Source: Nitrosospira sp. Nsp2 (GTDB lineage: Bacteria; Pseudomonadota; Gammaproteobacteria; Burkholderiales; Nitrosomonadaceae). From it: 64,000 nt of DNA. The stretch is taken from the NCBI RefSeq assembly GCF_003050965.1, contig NZ_QAOU01000005.1:62001-126000 (forward strand). Reading direction: 5' to 3'. A model generated the notes under the pieces. That model was not told where the DNA came from. It saw nothing but the letters and a program-made list of their open reading frames with translations, and did not search any database. How positions within the stretch are numbered: position 1 is the first letter of the stretch; the number at the start of each line of letters is the position of its first letter. Of the stretch, positions 52,141 to 63,108 are shown one piece after another. The position numbers were made by a program, and so were the translations under genes.

Positions 52141-53409
52141 TTAATACGCCGCCAGGAAAATATCGCTCGCGTCGAGCTCCGGCGCACCGACCAGTTTAGC
52201 CAGGTCAGTCGCGCCATGTCCGCCCTTACCGTCGGCATCGAACGACAGAACACCTGTTTTTTCGTTGTAAACGAAGAAATCGTCCTTATCCTCCGCTTTA
52301 CCCCACTTATTGCTGGCGAAATTATCGTCGTCAAGCTCACCTTTCTTCAAATCGTTGCGGCGGCCTTCAATCGCGTCATTGACGTCCTTCAGGCTGAACT
52401 GCAGGGTGTCTTCTCCTGACTTGAAGCCATCGATTTTGTCGAAGCCGTTGGACCACTTGGTTACACCGCTGAACACGATGGTGTCTTCGCCTCTGCCGCC
52501 GTCGATTTTGTCATCGCCTCTGCCGCCCTCGATTTTGTCATCGCCTCTGCCGCCAAAGATCGTGTCGTTGCCGCCCTTGCCAAACAGCTTGTCATCACCC
52601 CCGCGGCCATCGATAAAGTCGTTGCCGTTCCCACCCTCGAGCTTGTCGTCGCCTCTCGTGCCAACTATGTATTTGCCATAGTGACTGTAGTTGTGATCGG
52701 CGTAGCTGTCATGGTCTTCCCGTTCGCCATAATCCTTCCCGTTCTGGTCCCTGTAATCATTTTTCTTGTCATCCTTCCGATCATCGTCCTTCTTGTCGTC
52801 GTCATCCTTCTTGGCGTGCTTGTCATCCTTCTTGTCATCGTCCTTCTTGTCGTCGTCGTCCTTCCGATGATCATCCTTCTTCTTGTCGTCATCGTCCTTC
52901 TTGGCGTGCTTGTCGTCCTTCCTGTCATCGTCCTTCTTGTCGTCGTCGTCCTTCCGATGATCATCCTTCTTCTTGTCGTCATCGTCCTTCTTGGCATGCT
53001 TGTCGTCCTTCCTGTCATCGTCCTTCCGGTGGTCATCGTCCTTCCGATGATCATCCTTCTTCTTGTCGTCATCGTCCTTCTTGGCGTTCTTGTCGTCCTT
53101 CCGGTGGTCATCGTCCTTCCGGTGGTCATCGTCCTTCCGATGATCATCCTTCTTCTTGTCGTCATCGTCCTTCTTGGCGTTCTTGTCATCCTTCCGGTGG
53201 TCATCGTCCTTCCGGTGGTCATCGTCCTTCCGATGATCATCCTTCTTCTTGTCGTCATCGTCCTTCTTGGCGTTCTTGTCGTCCTTCCGGTGATCGTCAT
53301 TCCGGTGATCGTCCTTCTTATTCTTGTTGTCGTCCTTATAGTCGTCCTTATGATCGTCGTTCTTGCCGCGACCCAGAGTTGCTGTGATATCTAAAGTTGC
53401 TATAGCCAT
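52141..53409 (-). CDS. RTX calcium-binding protein with long Asp/Lys/His/Arg repeat tract
   Basis: 422 residues, three parts. Residues 1-20 are a short lead (MAIATLDITATLGRGKN). Residues about 20-225 are almost only D, K, H and R (with a few N and A) in tandem units such as KNAKKDDDDKKKDDHRKDDD. Residues about 255-320 hold RTX nonapeptides GGxGxDxUx (GGNGNDFIDG, GGRGDDKIEG). A folded end with a hydrophobic terminus (LDASDIFLAAY) is typical of type I secretion signals. No Sec signal. AGGAGAA precedes the ATG. Expected to be secreted and to bind Ca2+; the charged tract may bind metals or act as a stiff spacer. Confidence 0.9.
   Translation of the reverse strand: MAIATLDITATLGRGKNDDHKDDYKDDNKNKKDDHRNDDHRKDDKNAKKDDDDKKKDDHRKDDDHRKDDDHRKDDKNAKKDDDDKKKDDHRKDDDHRKDDDHRKDDKNAKKDDDDKKKDDHRKDDDHRKDDDRKDDKHAKKDDDDKKKDDHRKDDDDKKDDDRKDDKHAKKDDDDKKKDDHRKDDDDKKDDDKKDDKHAKKDDDDKKDDDRKDDKKNDYRDQNGKDYGEREDHDSYADHNYSHYGKYIVGTRGDDKLEGGNGNDFIDGRGGDDKLFGKGGNDTIFGGRGDDKIEGGRGDDKIDGGRGEDTIVFSGVTKWSNGFDKIDGFKSGEDTLQFSLKDVNDAIEGRRNDLKKGELDDDNFASNKWGKAEDKDDFFVYNEKTGVLSFDADGKGGHGATDLAKLVGAPELDASDIFLAAY
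52765..53345 (-). repeat. Tandem repeats encoding the charged tract
   Basis: The DNA consists of imperfect units of about 87-93 bases (29-31 residues), each built of shorter DDHRK and KKDDDD blocks. The first three copies share KNAKK, later ones KHAKK. This array can expand or contract by slippage and is a likely site of assembly error. Confidence 0.85.
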
Positions 53410-54075: not shown

Positions 54076-55989
54076 CTAGCGGTCAGTTAGCGTTTCGGGC
54101 AGTACGCGACTGCTCAGGTAGCTCGGCCAGCCTCCGTAGCGGCTGATATCGATCGCACCAGCAATTGCATAACGCTCACACAGGAAGCCTTGTACCGCGT
54201 CACCGCTCGCCAGCGTGATGGTCCCAATACCGAGCGGGACCGGGATGCCAGCAACAAAGCCGCCGAATTCGCGTTCGGGCATCTCCCAAACCTCGACATC
54301 GATGGACGTTCCTGGCTCATTCGCCTCAACATGCACCAATCCTGGACGATGCGGCGGCCCCCCGGGCAAGGCGTAGAGTTTGTAGTCTGAAGAGGTCGTG
54401 GTTTTGGTCACGAGCCTTCCATTGCGGCCCGTCAGTTCCCCATTCAACGGCAGGCCGGACAAATGCGCTCCGCACACAGCCACCCTTACCCAGCCCGGCT
54501 GCCGGCTCGCACAACCCGTCAGCTTTGATGAGTCGTTTGGCAAAGGTGTTGAAGGTCTTTGCGGTGACGAAGGTTTTTGCAAGGTCATGCCCGTTGCGCC
54601 AAGTGGAAGCGCATGGGTTTGTTGCAAGCGCTCCGCTAAATGTAGCAGCGGGATGTCGCGGTGAGCTTGGGCCACCAGTGTTATGCCAAAGGGCAGCCCA
54701 TCATTTTGAAACCCAGCCGGCACGGCGACGGCGGAGTAATCGAGAAGATTGACAAAATTGGTGTAGTAACCAAGATTCGCATTGAGCCGCACGGGATCCT
54801 GCTGCATCGCACGAATCGTATAAATCGTTCCTGCGGTGGGTGTCAGCAGGCAATCGACTTTAGCCTCCGTCCATATCCGCTCAGTCTCGCGCTTGAGCCT
54901 GCGCAACTCATATTCGCCTTCACAGGCATCCGCTGCCGAATAACGGTTGGCGCCTCCTATGATCTCCCGCACAGGTGCAACCACCTGATCGCTGTGCGAG
55001 TCGAAAAAATCCCTGATTGCGGCATAACGTTCAGCTACCCACGGACCTTCGTAGAGCAGGCGCGCGGTCTCCAGAAACGGAGCGAAGTCTATCTCGGCAG
55101 CGGTGCCACCCAGCGCCTCCATGCTTGCCACTGCCCGACCGAACAGCCGCGCAGCGTCCTGATTACCAAAGAATTGAAGCTGATGCTGGCGAGGGACGCC
55201 AAAGCGGAAGCGGCGGCCGCTAATGCTGAAATCGAAAACATGCTCCTTTCTCTGGCGAGAATAAACGTCCTCCTCGTCATACCCGGCGGATACTTCCAGA
55301 ATGCGACGGGCATCGGTGGCGGTAAAGGCGAAGATGGAAACACAATCGAGCGAACGACAGGCCGGCACCACGCCCCTTGTGGACAGCCAGCCCCGGGTCG
55401 GCTTATACCCGATCAAATTATTGAAAGCCGCGGGAACTCTGCCGGAACCCGCCGTATCCGTTCCGAGACTGAAACACACCATTCCTTTTGCCAGCGCCAC
55501 TGCCGAGCCGGAGCTTGATCCGCCTGAAATATAATCCGGGTTGAATGCGTTCTGGCACGCGCCGTATGGCGACCGCGTCCCGTTCAGTCCAGTGGCGAAC
55601 TGATCAAGGTTGGTCTTCCCGATGGGAATCGCGCCGGCATCGATCAATCTCTGCACCACGGTTGCATTCTTTTGCGGCGTGTAGGCATACGCCGGGCAGG
55701 CCGCCGTGGTTGGGAGACCGGCCAGATCAATATTATCCTTGATTGCAAAGGGAATGCCGTACAGCGGCAGGGCGTCCATTTCCGCGGCCCTCGCCTCCAT
55801 TGCGGACGCATACTGGCGCAACGCCTCGAGGGGCATTATGGATATCCAGGCGCTGTTGTCATTATTCCGGATGTGCCGGTGCACCGTCTCCACCATCCGG
55901 CTCGGGGTGAGTTCGCCGCTCGCATAGCGTTTCAGGAGGGTTTCGATATCACCCAGATATCCGGGTGACGGCCGTTTATCCATATTCAT
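54076..55989 (-). CDS. atzF: Allophanate hydrolase
   Basis: 637 residues from ATG 55989, which overlaps the carboxylase stop (ATGA); a longer frame to 56169 is antisense-like read-through of the carboxylase. It is an amidase-signature enzyme with Lys84 in IPFAIKDN, Ser158/159 in GGSSSGSA and Ser182 in GTDTAGSGRVPAA. The C-terminal allophanate-hydrolase domain starts near residue 470 (WVRVAVCGAHLSGLPLNGEL). It splits allophanate to two CO2 and two NH3. Last gene of the riboswitch-controlled operon. Confidence 0.93.
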   Translation of the reverse strand: MNMDKRPSPGYLGDIETLLKRYASGELTPSRMVETVHRHIRNNDNSAWISIMPLEALRQYASAMEARAAEMDALPLYGIPFAIKDNIDLAGLPTTAACPAYAYTPQKNATVVQRLIDAGAIPIGKTNLDQFATGLNGTRSPYGACQNAFNPDYISGGSSSGSAVALAKGMVCFSLGTDTAGSGRVPAAFNNLIGYKPTRGWLSTRGVVPACRSLDCVSIFAFTATDARRILEVSAGYDEEDVYSRQRKEHVFDFSISGRRFRFGVPRQHQLQFFGNQDAARLFGRAVASMEALGGTAAEIDFAPFLETARLLYEGPWVAERYAAIRDFFDSHSDQVVAPVREIIGGANRYSAADACEGEYELRRLKRETERIWTEAKVDCLLTPTAGTIYTIRAMQQDPVRLNANLGYYTNFVNLLDYSAVAVPAGFQNDGLPFGITLVAQAHRDIPLLHLAERLQQTHALPLGATGMTLQKPSSPQRPSTPLPNDSSKLTGCASRQPGWVRVAVCGAHLSGLPLNGELTGRNGRLVTKTTTSSDYKLYALPGGPPHRPGLVHVEANEPGTSIDVEVWEMPEREFGGFVAGIPVPLGIGTITLASGDAVQGFLCERYAIAGAIDISRYGGWPSYLSSRVLPETLTDR

Positions 55990-58900
55990 TCTTCTTGAAC
56001 AATAAGGAGCATCTGCCCGGCGGAGACGTGCGCTCCTTCTTTGCAAAATAATTGCCCTACCCTGCCCGCCACCGGAGCGGCCACCGGGAATTCCATCTTC
56101 ATGGACTCGACTACCAGAACGGTATCGCCTTCTTTCACGCAGTCGCCTTTCTGCACCAGGAGTTTCCACACCGTGCCCGTAACGTGTGCGCTAATGGCGC
56201 GTGCTCCGTCAGGCAGATCCAGCTCACTCTGCGTATCCGCTTCCTCCAGTACGATCTCGCTGATGTATTCAGCCTTACCCTCGGATTTCCACCGTTCGCG
56301 CTCCGCTTCAAACGCAGCCTGCTGGCTCTTCTTAAAGGCGCTGATCGACGCCGCGTTCTGTTTGAGAAAAGCGTTGTACTGTTTTAAACTGAAAGTGGTA
56401 TCTTCGATGCGCAGCTTGAAGTGACCGGTAATGAAGTCGCTGCGGAGCTTGAGCAATTCGCTCTCGCTTACCGGATAAAAACGGATCTGGTCGAAAAAAC
56501 GCAGGAGCCAGGGTTTCCCGCCTGCGAAATCGGCTGTCTGACGATACCGGTTCCACATCTGCACGGTGCGCCCAACGAATTGGTATCCGCCCGGGCCCTC
56601 CATGCCATAGATGCAGAGATACGCGCCCCCTATGCCCACCGCATTCTCTGGCGTCCAGGTTCGTGCGGGATTGTACTTCGTGGTAACGAGCCGGTGGCGC
56701 GGGTCCACCGGCGTGGCGACAGGCGCGCCGAGGTATACGTCGCCCAATCCAAGCACCAGGTAGCTCGCCTCAAAAACGGTATGCTGCACCTCTTCAATGT
56801 TGTCCAGCCCATTGATCCTTCGGATGAACTCGAGGTTGCTCGGGCACCACGGCGCGTCGTTTCGCACCGACTGCATATATTTCTCGATTGCCAGCCGCGT
56901 TGCCCCGTCATCCCAGGATAACGGGAGGTGCACGATGCGCGACGGGACCTCAACGTGCTCTATATCCGGTAATTTCTTTTCTGTTGCCAACAGGATGTCC
57001 AGCAGCTTGTCGCGCGACAGCAGTGTTGAATCAAAGTGGACTTGCAGCGAGCGGATGCCTGGCGTCAGATCCAGGATGCCCTCGAGTTCCCGGGTATCTA
57101 CCGAGTGCTGCAACGATTGCATAAGCGCATGGGCGCGAAAGCGCAAATTCAGGTCAAGTTCCAGCGGCCCATACTCCACCAGAAAATTCTTGTCACCTGC
57201 CTGGCGGTAAATCACCTGTACCTGTCCGCTGCTCTGCGGCGTAAAGTGCAGGACCGGAGTTGCAGTGGCCGCCGACCCTGCCTCAGGCGCAGCCGTTGCG
57301 GCTTGCGTCTGCCTCAGGTCCCTGATGGCCATCTCCTGCAGTTTCTCCTGGGCAAGTGCCTGATCCATCGACATAGGCCGGAAGCGTACGCTATCGCCCG
57401 GCTTGAGTTGCCCAATTTTCCATAGTTCGGCGTGGACGATTGTGGCCGGGCAAACGAAGCCGCCAAGACTGGGGCCGTCCGGCCCGAGAATCACCGGCAT
57501 GTCGCCGGTGAAATCGACCGTGCCAATCGCATATGCGTTGTCGTGTATATTTGACGGATGCAACCCCGCTTCGCCGCCGTCGCTGCGCGACCACTGGGGT
57601 TTGGGACCGATGAGGCGCACGCCGCTGCGACTTGAGTTGTAATGCACCTCCCAGTCAACGGCGAAAAAGGTTTCTATATCCTCCTCGGTAAAAAAATCCG
57701 GCGCTCCATGCGGGCCGTACAGCACGCCAATGTCCCATCTGTCGCGGTAATCGGGAACCAGTTCATCCGGCAACGCCGCCCGAGAGGGGGAGTCGGGAAG
57801 CAACCTCGCTTCGACGATATGCAGCACATCACCGGTCAGAAGCGCGCGTCCCGCATGACCCCCGAACTGACCGAGCGTAAAGGTGGATTTACTTCCCAGA
57901 TAATCCGGAACCTCAAAACCGCCGTGTACCGCCAGATAAGACCGGCAACCGTGATTCACGAGTTTCCCGAGCTGAACCACTGCGCCAGCCCTTACTTCGT
58001 GCGCTCGCCATTGCACAAGAGGCTCACCATCCAGCCGCACGTCTATGGGCGCGCCGCATATTGCGATCACGCTATCGCAATTGAAGCGCAGCGTCGGGCC
58101 CGCAAGCGTAATCTCGAGCCCAGCCTTGCCGCTGTCATTATCGACCAGGCGATTCGCCAGACGGAACGCCAAGCCATCCATGGGTCCGGATGGCGGCACT
58201 CCCACGCTCCAATAACCGGTTCGCCCCGGGTAATCCTGCACGGTGGTCTGCACGCCCGGACTGAGAACATCGATGGTATGGGCAATGTAATGAAAGCCAT
58301 TCAGAAAGGCGGTCGTATGGCGCCCAGCCTGGAATGCGGTACTGCGGAGAATCTGTTTAAGGTAGTCGAGATTCGTTTCGACGCCGTGCAGAGAGGTCGC
58401 ATCCAGCGCAGCATGCAATCGGGTTATGGCCTCCTCACGATCTGCGGCATGCACGATGATTTTAGCCAGCATCGGATCATAAAAAGGAGAAACCTCGACC
58501 CCGCGCTCCACCCAGGTTTCAACACGCGCCTCGGATGGTTTTGGAAAAAAGGCGCCCGTAAGCACGCCACAGGAAGGCTGAAACTCCCTCGCGGGATTTT
58601 CCGCGTACACACGCGCTTGAATCGACGCGCCACCCGGCTTGACCTTGAACGACTCCAACGGGAGCAAGTCTCCCGCCGCCTGCAGGACCATCCACTCCAC
58701 CAGGTCGATGCCGGTCACTTCTTCGGTCACGCCGTGTTCAACCTGCAGACGCGTATTCACTTCCAGAAAATAGAATTCATCCGTGGATGCGTCCAGAATA
58801 AACTCCACCGTCCCGGCGGACTGATAATTGACCGACTTGGCCAAACGAACCGCGGCATCCAGCAGGGCCTTGCGCACGGATGAAGGCAGATTTGGCGCCG

Positions 58901-59624
58901 GCGTTTCTTCGATGACCTTCTGATTGCGCCGTTGCATGGAGCAGTCGCGCTCCCCCAGCGCGATCACCTCACCCTTGCCATCACCAAAAATTTGCACTTC
59001 GATGTGACGGGCATTCGCGATATATTTTTCGAGGAACAGTCCTGCGTCGCTGAAATTATTCCGTGCCAGATATTTCACGGATTCGTAGGCTCCGCTCAAC
59101 TCATCCCTGTTCCAGCACAGGCGCATGCCAATGCCACCGCCTCCGGCGGTGCTTTTCAGCATGACCGGATAGCCGATATGCCCAGCGTAGCGAAATGCCT
59201 CCTCCACATCGGCGAGCAAGCCAGTCCCGGGCAGCAGCGGCAAACCGTTCTGCGAAGCGAGTTCCCTTGCCGTATGCTTCAGGCCGAAATCACGCATTTG
59301 TTTCGGACTCGGGCCGATAAAACATATACCGTGCGCACTGCATTGTTCGGCAAAATCCGCCTTCTCGCTCAAGAATCCATAGCCGGGGTGTATCGCTTGC
59401 GCCCCCGTGCGCTGGGCGAGTTCCAGAATCTTGTCGGCACGCAGATAGCTATCCGCCGCTACCCCGCTACCAATGCAATAGGCTTCGTCTGCTTCCAACG
59501 CATGCCGCGACAGTGCATCAGCCGCAGTATAGACTGCTACGCTTTTCACATTCATGCGTTGAAGCGTGCGAATAATACGGCAGGCGATGGCGCCACGATT
59601 GGCGATCAAAACTTTCTCGAACAT
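55986..59624 (-). CDS. Biotin-dependent urea/guanidine carboxylase
   Basis: 1212 residues. Biotin carboxylase domain (1-450: LIANRGAIACRIIRTL, GPSPKQMRDFGLKHTARELA, GIGMRLCW, EVNTRLQVEHGVTEE). It is followed by the kinase-inhibitor-like AHS2/AHS1 carboxyltransferase domains (about 470-1050). The C-terminal biotinyl domain has SMKME with the target Lys at 1176. It carboxylates urea to allophanate or guanidine to carboxyguanidine. The ykkC riboswitch and the two DUF1989 genes argue for guanidine. It lies 48 bp after the second DUF1989 gene. Confidence 0.93.
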   Translation of the reverse strand: MFEKVLIANRGAIACRIIRTLQRMNVKSVAVYTAADALSRHALEADEAYCIGSGVAADSYLRADKILELAQRTGAQAIHPGYGFLSEKADFAEQCSAHGICFIGPSPKQMRDFGLKHTARELASQNGLPLLPGTGLLADVEEAFRYAGHIGYPVMLKSTAGGGGIGMRLCWNRDELSGAYESVKYLARNNFSDAGLFLEKYIANARHIEVQIFGDGKGEVIALGERDCSMQRRNQKVIEETPAPNLPSSVRKALLDAAVRLAKSVNYQSAGTVEFILDASTDEFYFLEVNTRLQVEHGVTEEVTGIDLVEWMVLQAAGDLLPLESFKVKPGGASIQARVYAENPAREFQPSCGVLTGAFFPKPSEARVETWVERGVEVSPFYDPMLAKIIVHAADREEAITRLHAALDATSLHGVETNLDYLKQILRSTAFQAGRHTTAFLNGFHYIAHTIDVLSPGVQTTVQDYPGRTGYWSVGVPPSGPMDGLAFRLANRLVDNDSGKAGLEITLAGPTLRFNCDSVIAICGAPIDVRLDGEPLVQWRAHEVRAGAVVQLGKLVNHGCRSYLAVHGGFEVPDYLGSKSTFTLGQFGGHAGRALLTGDVLHIVEARLLPDSPSRAALPDELVPDYRDRWDIGVLYGPHGAPDFFTEEDIETFFAVDWEVHYNSSRSGVRLIGPKPQWSRSDGGEAGLHPSNIHDNAYAIGTVDFTGDMPVILGPDGPSLGGFVCPATIVHAELWKIGQLKPGDSVRFRPMSMDQALAQEKLQEMAIRDLRQTQAATAAPEAGSAATATPVLHFTPQSSGQVQVIYRQAGDKNFLVEYGPLELDLNLRFRAHALMQSLQHSVDTRELEGILDLTPGIRSLQVHFDSTLLSRDKLLDILLATEKKLPDIEHVEVPSRIVHLPLSWDDGATRLAIEKYMQSVRNDAPWCPSNLEFIRRINGLDNIEEVQHTVFEASYLVLGLGDVYLGAPVATPVDPRHRLVTTKYNPARTWTPENAVGIGGAYLCIYGMEGPGGYQFVGRTVQMWNRYRQTADFAGGKPWLLRFFDQIRFYPVSESELLKLRSDFITGHFKLRIEDTTFSLKQYNAFLKQNAASISAFKKSQQAAFEAERERWKSEGKAEYISEIVLEEADTQSELDLPDGARAISAHVTGTVWKLLVQKGDCVKEGDTVLVVESMKMEFPVAAPVAGRVGQLFCKEGAHVSAGQMLLIVQEE

Positions 59625-59672
59625 ACCTTATTCCTGAGTTATGCAGTCATGGCAGGCTTGCCATCCATCACA

Positions 59673-60344
59673 TCACACGTTTGGATCGTCCCAGACCAGC
59701 AACCGGATCGGCGTGGGGTTGTAGGCGTTGCAGGGGTTGTTCAGTTGCGGACAATTTGAGATGAGCACCACCACATCCATTTCCGCTTTCATCTCCACAT
59801 ACTTGCCTGGCGCGGATAAGCCATCGACGAACTCCAGGCCGCCTTCCTCGCCAACGGGCACGTTCATGAAGAAATTGATGTTGCTGGGCAGATCGCGCTT
59901 GCCCATACCCAGATGCTCGCATACGGGATCGTGAGCGAGCGCATGCAGGAAGTTGTCGCGGCAACTGTGCATCGGAAATTTGTCCAGCCCATACCGCACC
60001 GTATTGCTTTCCGCCGCGCAGGCCCCACCCAGCGTATCATGCCGCCCGCATGTGTCGGCCACGATGGTGAGCATGACATTCCCGCAGTTGGAGTACAGCA
60101 TGCTGCCGGTGGTGAGATACAGCATCTGCTGGCGGCGAATCGTATTTGTAGCGCTATATCGCTCGGTCACCCGCGATGCATTGTAGAACAGCGTATCCAC
60201 CGCCTGATTCCCACCCAAATCCACGATTCGGAATATTTGTCCCTGCATCACCAGCTTGACCCAGGGCTCGCCCGCGGGACATATCTCATCCACCACCGCC
60301 GCCTCGGGATCAAGCCTGCTTTCGACAACTTGTGTTGCGCTCAT
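59673..60344 (-). CDS. DUF1989 'urea carboxylase-associated' protein 2, likely carboxyguanidine deiminase subunit
   Basis: 223 residues of the DUF1989/urea-amidolyase-associated family 2. Conserved Cys-rich core: SNCGNVMLTIVADTCGRHDT, then GGACAAESN, SCRDNFLHAL and SNINFFMNVPV. Homologues of this pair were shown (CgdA/CgdB) to deiminate carboxyguanidine to allophanate and ammonium. Which letter applies is not certain. It overlaps the preceding gene by four bases. Confidence 0.88.
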   Translation of the reverse strand: MSATQVVESRLDPEAAVVDEICPAGEPWVKLVMQGQIFRIVDLGGNQAVDTLFYNASRVTERYSATNTIRRQQMLYLTTGSMLYSNCGNVMLTIVADTCGRHDTLGGACAAESNTVRYGLDKFPMHSCRDNFLHALAHDPVCEHLGMGKRDLPSNINFFMNVPVGEEGGLEFVDGLSAPGKYVEMKAEMDVVVLISNCPQLNNPCNAYNPTPIRLLVWDDPNV

Positions 60345-61072
60345 GCCGCACCTCCATCACAGCCATATAGATGTCGAGTATTTTGCAATGCGCGCATATT
60401 CTCCGGGATGCGTGCACACGCCGACGCCGTTGACGGTGGCGTGGCAAAGGCTGCCAGTCCGACTGCGCCCGGGCGGTAAAGCTTTGCGGGATCGAGTGGG
60501 TGCGGTGCGGAGGAAAGGATCACCAGCGTATCCATCTCGAAGCTCAAGTCCACATAATCCCCCGCCTTGCTGTTGCCCGAGTGAAAGGTCACGGCGCCCG
60601 CTGCATCGGCGGTAACCTTACTGAAGAAATTGATATTGGCGACCAGATCGCGCATGCCGAGCCCCCACTTGCCGAGCTCAATCAGCATGCCATCCAGCCC
60701 ACTCCGAAACATCTCATTCCGCTGTTCCTGAAAGCGCGTCATGCCGTATTTTTCACGTACCAATGAGGTGTCGCTCACGCCACACGCCGTATCGTTCCAC
60801 CCCGCGGTATCCTCGGTAATGCAGCAGAAAATACGACCCATGTCCGAGTGACAGGCATGTCCTTTCGTCAAGCGGAACGTGTGCTGCGACTTCAGCGTAT
60901 CCGCCATGTTGTACCGTTCCAGTTTTTCTTCAGGATTAAAAAACAGTACCGCGGCATTCGCCCCGCCATTAATATCCGTCAAACGCAGCGTCAAGCCTCG
61001 GCGCAAAATGCCCGACCAATGGCATCCGCCAGGAATGTACTGGTCCCAAAGAAGTGCGTGCGGCTGGTTCAT
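60341..61072 (-). CDS. DUF1989 'urea carboxylase-associated' protein 1, likely carboxyguanidine deiminase subunit
   Basis: 243 residues of the associated family 1: LRLTDINGGANAAVLFFNP, GRIFCCITEDTAGWNDTACG, LGMRDLVANINFFSKV and HSGNSKAGDYVDLSFEMDTL. It is homologous to the next gene, with which it probably forms a heteromer binding a metal through Cys/His. ATGA overlap with that gene; 122 bp after the permease. Confidence 0.88.
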   Translation of the reverse strand: MNQPHALLWDQYIPGGCHWSGILRRGLTLRLTDINGGANAAVLFFNPEEKLERYNMADTLKSQHTFRLTKGHACHSDMGRIFCCITEDTAGWNDTACGVSDTSLVREKYGMTRFQEQRNEMFRSGLDGMLIELGKWGLGMRDLVANINFFSKVTADAAGAVTFHSGNSKAGDYVDLSFEMDTLVILSSAPHPLDPAKLYRPGAVGLAAFATPPSTASACARIPENMRALQNTRHLYGCDGGAA

Positions 61073-61194
61073 ATTTCTCTCCTTTCTTTCTTATGATTCA
61101 CAAATTTTCTCAAGAGGGTCCGGAATTCGATCGACAGGTCAATTTTTACGCCGTTCCGGAGATCTGGATAAGCCGTGACAGCCATCACCCGTGC

Positions 61195-62667
61195 TTACTG
61201 CGGCGCGATCTTGCGTGGCGCCGTTTTTTTTCGGATTTTGTTTACCAGAATGTACAACGCCGTCACGCCGACGATGCCGCCCAGCACGAGGGGTACCGCC
61301 CAAAGCTGCCACCATGGGGCGGCGGGCGACACCGCATAGGGGCGCGGCCATGCAATATTAATGAGTTCGAACACAGACCAGAGAAAAGCCACCGTATTGA
61401 TCGCCAAACCCCACCCACCGAGCTTGAGCTCGCCCAGCGCCGGGTTCCAGCGACCCGTCAGCCTGGTATACAACCCCACCCCTGTGGTCATCGAGAACAT
61501 GGCATAGAGTCCTCCGGTCCCGAACGCTATTACCGTCGCCACCGCGCCGTCGTTCAGCCCAAACAGCAATCCGAGTCCGGCCAGCGAGACGGTAAACAGC
61601 ACCGCCTTACGGGGCGTCTTGTCCGGCGCGAGCTTGCTTAACACAGCAGGCATGTTCCCTTCCCGCGCCATTGAATAAACAATGCGCGAGGTATATTTCA
61701 CCACTGACGCGCCACAAGCCAGGAACGCAACCATCACAATCCCTAGAAACGGCTTCTCAGCCCAGTGGCCGAAACTGCTGACTATCACGGGAGTGATTGG
61801 ATCAGATGTGTTGCTCGCGGTTTGAAGCGTATCCCGGTCGAATGCCAACGTCAGCGCGGCGGAATTGAAGAGCACGACTGATCCCACCACGCACAACGAT
61901 AAAAATACCGCGCGCGGCACCATCCGCTTGGGCTCATTGGTTTCCTCCGCGATTGTCGAACATGCATCAAAACCGATGAATGCCCAGCCTGCGATAGCAA
62001 GCGCCGCAAGAAACGCCGCGGTTTCGCCGGGGGCGGTTCCGGTGCCGAGATGCTGGAACAATTCCGAGAACGAATGCTGCCTGAAGAAGAGAAACAGCAG
62101 GAGCGCCACACCTAGCGATCCCACCACTTCGGCATAAACCCCAAGCGTGATGACCAGCTTAAAAATATTGACGTTAACCACGTTGACCAGGGTGCAAAGC
62201 AGCAGGAATACGGCTCCCCACATGACTAAAGCATGGCCTGTCTCAGCGGGCAAGCCAGAAAACAGGGATAGCCACACGCCGCCGGTATAAGCAGTTGTGG
62301 TTAGCATGGCGATAGTCGAACTCACATAAATGACGCCGGCGAATTGCCCTGCAGTCGCACCAGCCAACTGATGCGTCCATTTATATGCCCCCCCCGCGAT
62401 CGGGAACTGTGACGACAGTTCGGCGTAAACGGTGGCGACCAGTAATTGCATAGCCAGACACGTAACCAGCGCGGCAAACCAGCCGCCCCCCGTGACCACG
62501 GTCTGTACGCTGATAATCGCGTAAAGGCCGACCACCGGAGAAACAACCGCAAAACCGAGAGTGAAGCTGTTCCAGACGCTCATGCTGCGGTGAAGCTTAT
62601 CGCCCGTTTCTGACGCCAACGAGGGAATGACCTCGGGAAAATTCTCCGGGCAAGGCTTTATCGACAT
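61195..62667 (-). CDS. APC-family permease, probable guanidine or amide importer
   Basis: 490 residues, twelve predicted helices. The amino acid-polyamine-organocation family N-terminus is present (SVWNSFTLGFAVVSPVVGLY), with a PIAGGAYKW-type motif in helix 3 and GFDACSTIAEETNEPKRMVP between helices 6 and 7. First gene of the operon under the guanidine-I riboswitch, so the substrate is most likely guanidine or a related amidine. Many such operons use an ABC importer or an SMR exporter instead. GGAAGGGA precedes the ATG. Confidence 0.88.
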   Translation of the reverse strand: MSIKPCPENFPEVIPSLASETGDKLHRSMSVWNSFTLGFAVVSPVVGLYAIISVQTVVTGGGWFAALVTCLAMQLLVATVYAELSSQFPIAGGAYKWTHQLAGATAGQFAGVIYVSSTIAMLTTTAYTGGVWLSLFSGLPAETGHALVMWGAVFLLLCTLVNVVNVNIFKLVITLGVYAEVVGSLGVALLLFLFFRQHSFSELFQHLGTGTAPGETAAFLAALAIAGWAFIGFDACSTIAEETNEPKRMVPRAVFLSLCVVGSVVLFNSAALTLAFDRDTLQTASNTSDPITPVIVSSFGHWAEKPFLGIVMVAFLACGASVVKYTSRIVYSMAREGNMPAVLSKLAPDKTPRKAVLFTVSLAGLGLLFGLNDGAVATVIAFGTGGLYAMFSMTTGVGLYTRLTGRWNPALGELKLGGWGLAINTVAFLWSVFELINIAWPRPYAVSPAAPWWQLWAVPLVLGGIVGVTALYILVNKIRKKTAPRKIAPQ

Positions 62668-62822
62668 GGCGATCCCTTCCGGCTAAATTCCGGGGACGGG
62701 TTTCGTTCACTGCGCGAGAAGCCTGACCCCCGGCGCGGTAAAGATGTGCCCCTGAAGGCGATTAGCCAGAAGCCGGAACGGGGCGTGGAGAAAAACGTAG
62801 AAGGTACGGAAGAGAAATGCAT
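62658..62822 (-). CDS. Putative 54-residue leader ORF overlapping the permease start
   Basis: ATG at 62822 is preceded by AAAGGAGA with an eight-base spacer, a better site than many genes here. The frame ends ten bases inside the permease gene, which would couple the two. The product is basic and low in structure. It could be a leader peptide or chance. Confidence 0.35.
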   Translation of the reverse strand: MHFSSVPSTFFSTPRSGFWLIAFRGTSLPRRGSGFSRSERNPSPEFSRKGSPCR

Positions 62823-62880
62823 GAACAAGGTCTCCTTTGAAATCGGCTGGGTCAAACCCAAGAGTCAATGTATGTCCTAC

Positions 62881-62990
62881 ATTATCTCCCGGGCTTTTAT
62901 CCCTCCGTGGAGCCTCGTCACGACGAAGCCGGAAACTCTCGGACCAGACGCCTTCTTCTCCGCTAAGGAGAGCAGGCCGGAACCCTAGTT
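62881..62990 (-). ncRNA. Guanidine-I riboswitch (ykkC class)
   Basis: On the minus strand the conserved blocks occur in the right order. CTAGGGTTCCG is at the 5' end (62988-62978), then a hairpin. CTGGTCCGAGAG follows at 62947-62936, then a second hairpin (CTTCGTCGTGACGAGG). The strict 3' block GGATAAAAGCCCGGGAGA is at 62902-62885. This class binds guanidinium and usually turns expression on. It lies 214 bases before the permease start. The expression platform was not resolved; a small stem TGGGT-TTG-ACCCA follows the aptamer. Confidence 0.93.
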
Positions 62991-63108
62991 TCACTTTACA
63001 GCAACCGTACCTGTTGGTCGAAAACGTCCAACTCGAAGTACAGTCAGGTATTACTGATACGCAATTTTTGCACGCCTCACCCAGAAAGGCAAGATATTGC
63101 CAGTCAGA

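Follow-up and report, generated by a model that had tools for sequence, protein, structure and literature searches.

How does a guanidine riboswitch govern an operon when the ribosome-binding site next to it belongs to another reading frame? This question is raised by a locus in a 64,000-nucleotide stretch of Nitrosospira sp. Nsp2 (contig NZ_QAOU01000005.1; the whole stretch is called the window below), where a Guanidine-I (ykkC) aptamer is followed by genes for a permease, two DUF1989 proteins, a biotin-dependent carboxylase and an allophanate hydrolase. The riboswitch-proximal ribosome-binding site is positioned for a 54-codon leader open reading frame (ORF), not for the permease gene. The TAA of this leader overlaps the region of the permease ATG, so that the leader ends 10 nucleotides (nt) inside the permease gene (ATGTCGATAA). 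A sequence-only reading of the window had described the five genes and overlooked the leader. The explanation we favor, at a probability of roughly 0.6, is a riboswitch-controlled guanidine operon in which translation of the leader serves as a relay to the permease.

The leader reading frame and its conservation

The leader was compared in 22 sequences from as many Nitrosospira-genus genomes (the window and L034-L054), excluding L055, the second riboswitch locus of genome G104, which lies at a contig end. An ATG or GTG start codon stands 53-62 nt past the aptamer motif GGGAGA in 21 of the 22, and both the start codon and the Shine-Dalgarno sequence, AAAGGAG in the window, recur in sequence across the genus. 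Up to the permease start, the leader frame is open in 20/22 sequences versus 5/22 for each of the other two frames, and that interval contains 7 stops in the leader frame as opposed to 43 and 37. With one sequence per permease clade, the leader frame is open in 8/9 (chance by shuffling ~0.0006) and the other frames in 2/9 each. Leader lengths range from 30 to 123 codons, while the distance from leader to permease takes 15 different values, with a remainder of 2 modulo 3 in 17/22. The leader stop falls inside the permease gene by 10 nt in 12/22, by 4 nt in two, by 20 nt in one and by 26 nt in another; in the others it lies upstream, by 4 nt in one, 11 nt in three and 58 nt in two. We consider it probable that the leader is translated. 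That permease expression requires it falls slightly short of an even chance.

We hypothesize that the riboswitch-proximal ribosome-binding site would initiate the leader instead of the permease, and that leader translation would relay the state of the switch to the permease, by termination-reinitiation and/or by ribosomes covering the transcript against Rho. A relay of this kind exists elsewhere, as the B12 riboswitch of Mycobacterium tuberculosis ppe2 demonstrates (PMC11260477). There, the riboswitch also controls a translated upstream ORF overlapping the next start, and termination-reinitiation has been demonstrated. The ppe2 system differs in its aptamer, its OFF direction, the gene controlled and its overlap (AUGA, as against 10 nt in Nitrosospira), and the Nitrosospira case is comparative only. 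The SAM-II riboswitch of Sinorhizobium meliloti metA likewise contains a Shine-Dalgarno sequence governing a start farther downstream, but that start is an in-frame second AUG 74 nt away, with no separate overlapping leader ORF (PMC9373788).

No guanidine riboswitch with such a leader ORF was found in the open-access literature, and the accessible main text of the survey of guanidine use in nitrifiers (PMC11410670) contains none of the terms 'leader', 'upstream open reading' or 'expression platform'. The leader ORF is thus presented as a new element, which would place an extra layer of control on the guanidine operon and add a variant of riboswitch control through a coupled upstream ORF. It also offers a comparative example of an ORF seemingly retained for being translated and not for its product.

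A similar layout recurs in a set of loci labelled Nitrospira. An Rfam scan of 19 loci labelled Nitrospira, Nitrospiraceae or Nitrospirae found the aptamer in 12 (8/11 and 4/8), to which L172 was added by motif. In 11 of these 13 loci, a leader of 25-30 codons begins at +57 to +59; ten of the leaders end 4-11 nt inside the permease gene and one ends 13 nt before it. The two exceptions are L167, which starts the permease directly, and L148, where the leader start is lost. The leader frame is open in 11 loci versus 5 and 6 for the other frames, with 1 stop versus 8 and 5. These counts are weak evidence, since the leaders are short and related, and L139 and L142 are identical across the leader stretch. 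The published comammox Nitrospira loci share the aptamer class and a related permease, but 46 of the 56 with the riboswitch encode a guanidinase beside the permease (PMC11410670).

Nitrosomonas loci are mostly arranged differently. In most of those that could be placed, the permease itself starts ~60-70 nt past the aptamer (95 nt in L182), and the Shine-Dalgarno sequence at the place of AAAGGAG serves the permease directly. Leaders are nonetheless present in four Nitrosomonas-type loci (L064, L180, L183 and L195, two of which bear the names N. communis and N. nitrosa); at 63-90 codons, these leaders end 30-95 nt before the permease. Leaders in genus g4 span 14-21 codons. Tentatively, and with less confidence than in a requirement for the leader, we propose that in Nitrosospira and in the Nitrospira-labelled loci, which are probably comammox, the riboswitch, instead of acting on the permease start, gates a leader with no conserved peptide, and that translation up to a stop at the permease start switches the operon on. 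This would be a conserved relay of ammonia oxidisers from two phyla, absent in most of the Nitrosomonas loci examined.

The switching step and competing explanations

The ykkC aptamer named by the sequence-only reading was recovered by Rfam as a full-length match to RF00442 (model positions 1-107 of 107, gathering score 63 bits, E 9.3e-14); its earlier limits, 62881-62990, were off by 3 and 9 nt. It is the only RF00442 match in the genome. Across the family, Guanidine-I matches occur in 101 of the 125 genomes searched, and in 22 of the 23 listed in the genus of the window. We infer that this aptamer binds guanidinium and acts as an ON switch. Its 3' strand has two options, as it can close the last aptamer helix or, overlapping the 5' arm, form an alternative hairpin (GCCCGGGAGAUAAUGUA with UACAUUGACUCUUGGG). 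An informal comparison of the arms indicates that relatives retain the UACAUUGACUCUUGGG hairpin with changed letters. No U-run follows the hairpin, and a search from aptamer to permease found no terminator-like site, so an intrinsic terminator was rejected as the switch. Four genomes (G014, G015, G016 and G033) carry paired Guanidine-I aptamers, back to back on opposite strands and ~200-300 nt apart.

Several observations weigh against the leader relay. The leader of L037 has ATA in the start position, and the leaders that stop 58 nt short of the permease are those of L035 and L052. Over seven related pairs, leader substitutions fall evenly on the codon positions (76/87/83), in contrast to those of the permease (93/70/546 over positions 1/2/3). 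Because of this evenness, the conserved property would be openness up to the permease start and not the peptide, and a functional leader peptide was rejected. The N-terminal residues are similar in many sequences (MHFSS-like). The bases encoding them can pair with the Shine-Dalgarno sequence, so a constraint on the RNA explains the likeness equally well.

Constrained folding also speaks against a simple switch. With the aptamer 3' strand withheld, the leader Shine-Dalgarno sequence became more open in 0/19 Nitrosospira-genus sequences and less open in 8/19; this count takes in 19 of the 22, leaving out L039, L042 and L043 (GGAG upstream of the real site). The same folding of 17 loci from other genera gave 0 more open and 9 less open. 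A translational ON switch through a freed leader Shine-Dalgarno sequence is hence unsupported. The permease Shine-Dalgarno sequence was less open than the mean of shuffled leaders in 10/22 Nitrosospira and 6/11 Nitrospira sequences. Real leaders thus do not differ from shuffled ones, and the idea that the leader buries this site was rejected. Nor did the leader RNA of the window show unusual stability (z-score -0.52). As both folding tests opposed the simple models, the relay is proposed from conservation alone.

A last adverse point comes from physiology. Five strains of ammonia-oxidising bacteria (AOB) with the pathway genes were offered guanidine as the only substrate, and none used it; when ammonium was supplied as well, three of them broke down part of the guanidine (PMC11410670). 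The sequence-only reading had placed the pathway in a probable ammonia oxidiser, which holds, and had suggested that the released ammonium could feed energy metabolism directly, a claim only partly supported given these failures on guanidine alone. Speculatively, coupling to leader translation could tie the operon to the translational or energy state of the cell in addition to guanidine, and this may be part of the reason why AOB with these genes used guanidine incompletely and only with ammonium.

The strongest competitor holds that the operon is the known one, with a transcriptional riboswitch and a permease translated from its own Shine-Dalgarno sequence, the leader ORF being a by-product with no function. 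An AAGGG resembling a Shine-Dalgarno sequence does precede the permease ATG, and this explanation readily accommodates a peptide evolving free of constraint, a permease start that is not specially buried, a bound-like fold that does not free the leader Shine-Dalgarno sequence, and the Nitrosomonas loci, most of which manage without a leader. The riboswitch class has moreover been called a transcriptional suppressor (PMC11410670). Against it stand the leader frame kept open with so few stops, the recurrence of its start codon and Shine-Dalgarno sequence, and the lack of a terminator-like site from aptamer to permease. We regard it as doubtful, if worth serious attention. A narrower alternative assigns leader translation solely to protection from Rho, which would end transcription in the C-rich leader whenever it is untranslated. 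The composition of the window's leader (C 0.35, G 0.24) suits this idea, and so does the finding that nothing like an intrinsic terminator follows the switch hairpin. The C excess is, however, missing from several relatives (L035, L037, L041 and L042 among them), and protection from Rho does not require the leader to stop where the permease starts. We consider this explanation unlikely. The leader relay, in which Rho may play a part, remains our preferred reading.

The predicted guanidine pathway and its host

The features of the locus are listed in the table. Family models confirmed the gene list of the sequence-only reading, with four of the five operon proteins exceeding the cut-offs of specific NCBIfam models. 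The exception is the permease, which scores 163.4 bits against TIGR03428 (urea-carboxylase-system permease), far under the cut-off of 740.45, and is assignable as APC superfamily only. Its closest named relative is from Nitrosospira sp. Nsp14 (92%). The genes had been described as tightly coupled by ATGA overlaps; these are present at the UAAP1/UAAP2 and carboxylase/allophanate hydrolase junctions, while gaps of 122 nt and 48 nt separate permease from UAAP1 and UAAP2 from carboxylase.

Features of the guanidine locus, in window coordinates
Feature	Position	Strand	Basis
Guanidine-I (ykkC) aptamer	62884..62999	minus	Rfam RF00442, 85.1 bits
Alternative hairpin, GCCCGGGAGAUAAUGUA / UACAUUGACUCUUGGG	62857..62894	minus	leader RNA fold
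Leader Shine-Dalgarno sequence AAAGGAG, conserved	62832..62838	minus	comparison with relatives
Leader ORF, 54 codons	62658..62822	minus	frame conservation in genus
APC-superfamily permease, predicted guanidine importer	61195..62667	minus	PF13520 117.6 bits (cut-off 27), PF00324
DUF1989 protein UAAP1, predicted carboxyguanidine deiminase subunit	60341..61072	minus	TIGR03425 320.9 bits (cut-off 205.95)
DUF1989 protein UAAP2, predicted carboxyguanidine deiminase subunit	59673..60344	minus	TIGR03424 339.3 bits (cut-off 284.7)
Predicted guanidine carboxylase (biotin carboxylase, BC; carboxyltransferase, CT; biotin domains)	55986..59624	minus	TIGR02712 1948 bits (cut-off 1303.85)
Allophanate hydrolase, C-terminal AH_C domain	54076..55989	minus	TIGR02713 806 bits (cut-off 511.05), PF21986 154.9 bits

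In the predicted pathway, imported guanidine would be carboxylated at the expense of ATP by the biotin-dependent enzyme, the DUF1989 pair would deiminate the carboxylated guanidine to allophanate, and allophanate would be hydrolysed to ammonium and CO2. Adjacent DUF1989 genes of UAAP1 and UAAP2 type, the feature used to recognise a carboxyguanidine deiminase CgdAB, are present. The carboxylase has 1212 residues and an ESMKM biotin site. Guanidine carboxylases are distinguished by aspartate at position 1330 of the Kluyveromyces lactis urea amidolyase, where urea carboxylases have asparagine, together with aspartate at 1584 (PMC11410670); a review cites the same aspartate/asparagine difference (PMC12186494). 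The sequence-only reading had proposed an alignment of the carboxyltransferase active site. Aligning the carboxylase to the K. lactis protein places D704 at N1330 and D962 at D1584, the signature of a guanidine carboxylase. The two positions were counted by hand in alignments to 5i8i and 3va7, both of the K. lactis protein; the 5i8i alignment ends just short of residue 1584, and the GLGD motif is seen in that to 3va7. Across 40 loci of relatives, five of which contained no carboxylase, both aspartates occur in 35/35 carboxylases.

The two aspartates, the guanidine aptamer and the deiminase pair make guanidine the much likelier predicted substrate than urea, and we hold with high confidence that this is a guanidine carboxylase pathway under a Guanidine-I riboswitch, as the sequence-only reading had it. 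The opposite view, of an operon for urea breakdown by urea carboxylase and allophanate hydrolase with guanidine incidental, draws on the NCBIfam gene names ('urea carboxylase', 'urea amidolyase associated'). It conflicts with D704 and with the guanidine aptamer at the head of the operon, on which grounds a urea-specific carboxylase was rejected. The DUF1989 pair is, besides, dispensable for urea breakdown, and a urease is encoded elsewhere in the genome. Altogether, the urea explanation is extremely improbable.

The five-gene operon itself is already known, and the sequence-only reading was a correct rediscovery, as the survey of Palatinszky et al. 2024 (PMC11410670) draws the riboswitch-controlled operon of N. 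multiformis. That system is the same one, with Guanidine-I riboswitch, APC permease, carboxylase, deiminase, allophanate hydrolase and signature residues. The survey reports guanidine-degradation genes, exclusively of the carboxylase pathway, in 135/145 betaproteobacterial AOB genomes, most of which also encode an APC permease in that region. Not every nitrifier has these genes: when floodplain nitrifier genomes were surveyed in 2025, none turned up (PMC12625717).

The host is a Nitrosospira-type ammonia oxidiser, which the sequence-only reading had thought probable. Its near-complete genome (3.46 Mb in 21 contigs) encodes amoA (PF02461, 416.8 bits), amoB (PF04744, 590.4 bits) and an HAO-type cytochrome (PF13447, 522.1 bits), none of which matches in 14 control genomes. 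The arginase/guanidinase (ureohydrolase) family PF00491 has no match genome-wide and matches 9/14 controls, on which ground a guanidinase (GdmH) route was rejected; this also sets the genome apart from the comammox loci. It is one more genome showing ammonia oxidisers equipped for guanidine.

Some relatives carry variants of the pathway. A second, shortened carboxylase, which lacks the whole BC domain, was found in 7 of 17 genomes that were hand-picked, mostly for odd operons (G100, G103, G104, G106, G109, G112 and G033); each also has a full-length copy. The two at L044:3673-5994 (+) and L041:4409-6730 (-) have 773 residues, with a short MFEK stub followed by CT and biotin domains. Both aspartates occur in 4/4 copies inspected (L041, L044, L048 and L051) and the ESMKM site in 2/2 copies checked, and the shortened enzyme may depend on a biotin carboxylase supplied by another protein in trans. 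Biotin synthesis genes adjoin it (bioB and bioC at L044, 5991-7100 and 7496-8338; bioB at L041, 241-1278), fitting a biotin-dependent operon. Only two of the same 17 genomes have an allophanate hydrolase above the TIGR02713 cut-off; speculatively, others with carboxylase and deiminase may let allophanate decay to urea or use a different amidase. In genus g4, the carboxylase directly adjoins the permease at L059, L060 and L061, with no DUF1989 pair between them; five of six genomes have no DUF1989 match, and G119 has two. The window also encodes an RTX-type calcium-binding repeat protein (52141-53409, minus strand), in which DDHRKDD/KKDD repeats form a long N-terminal stretch.

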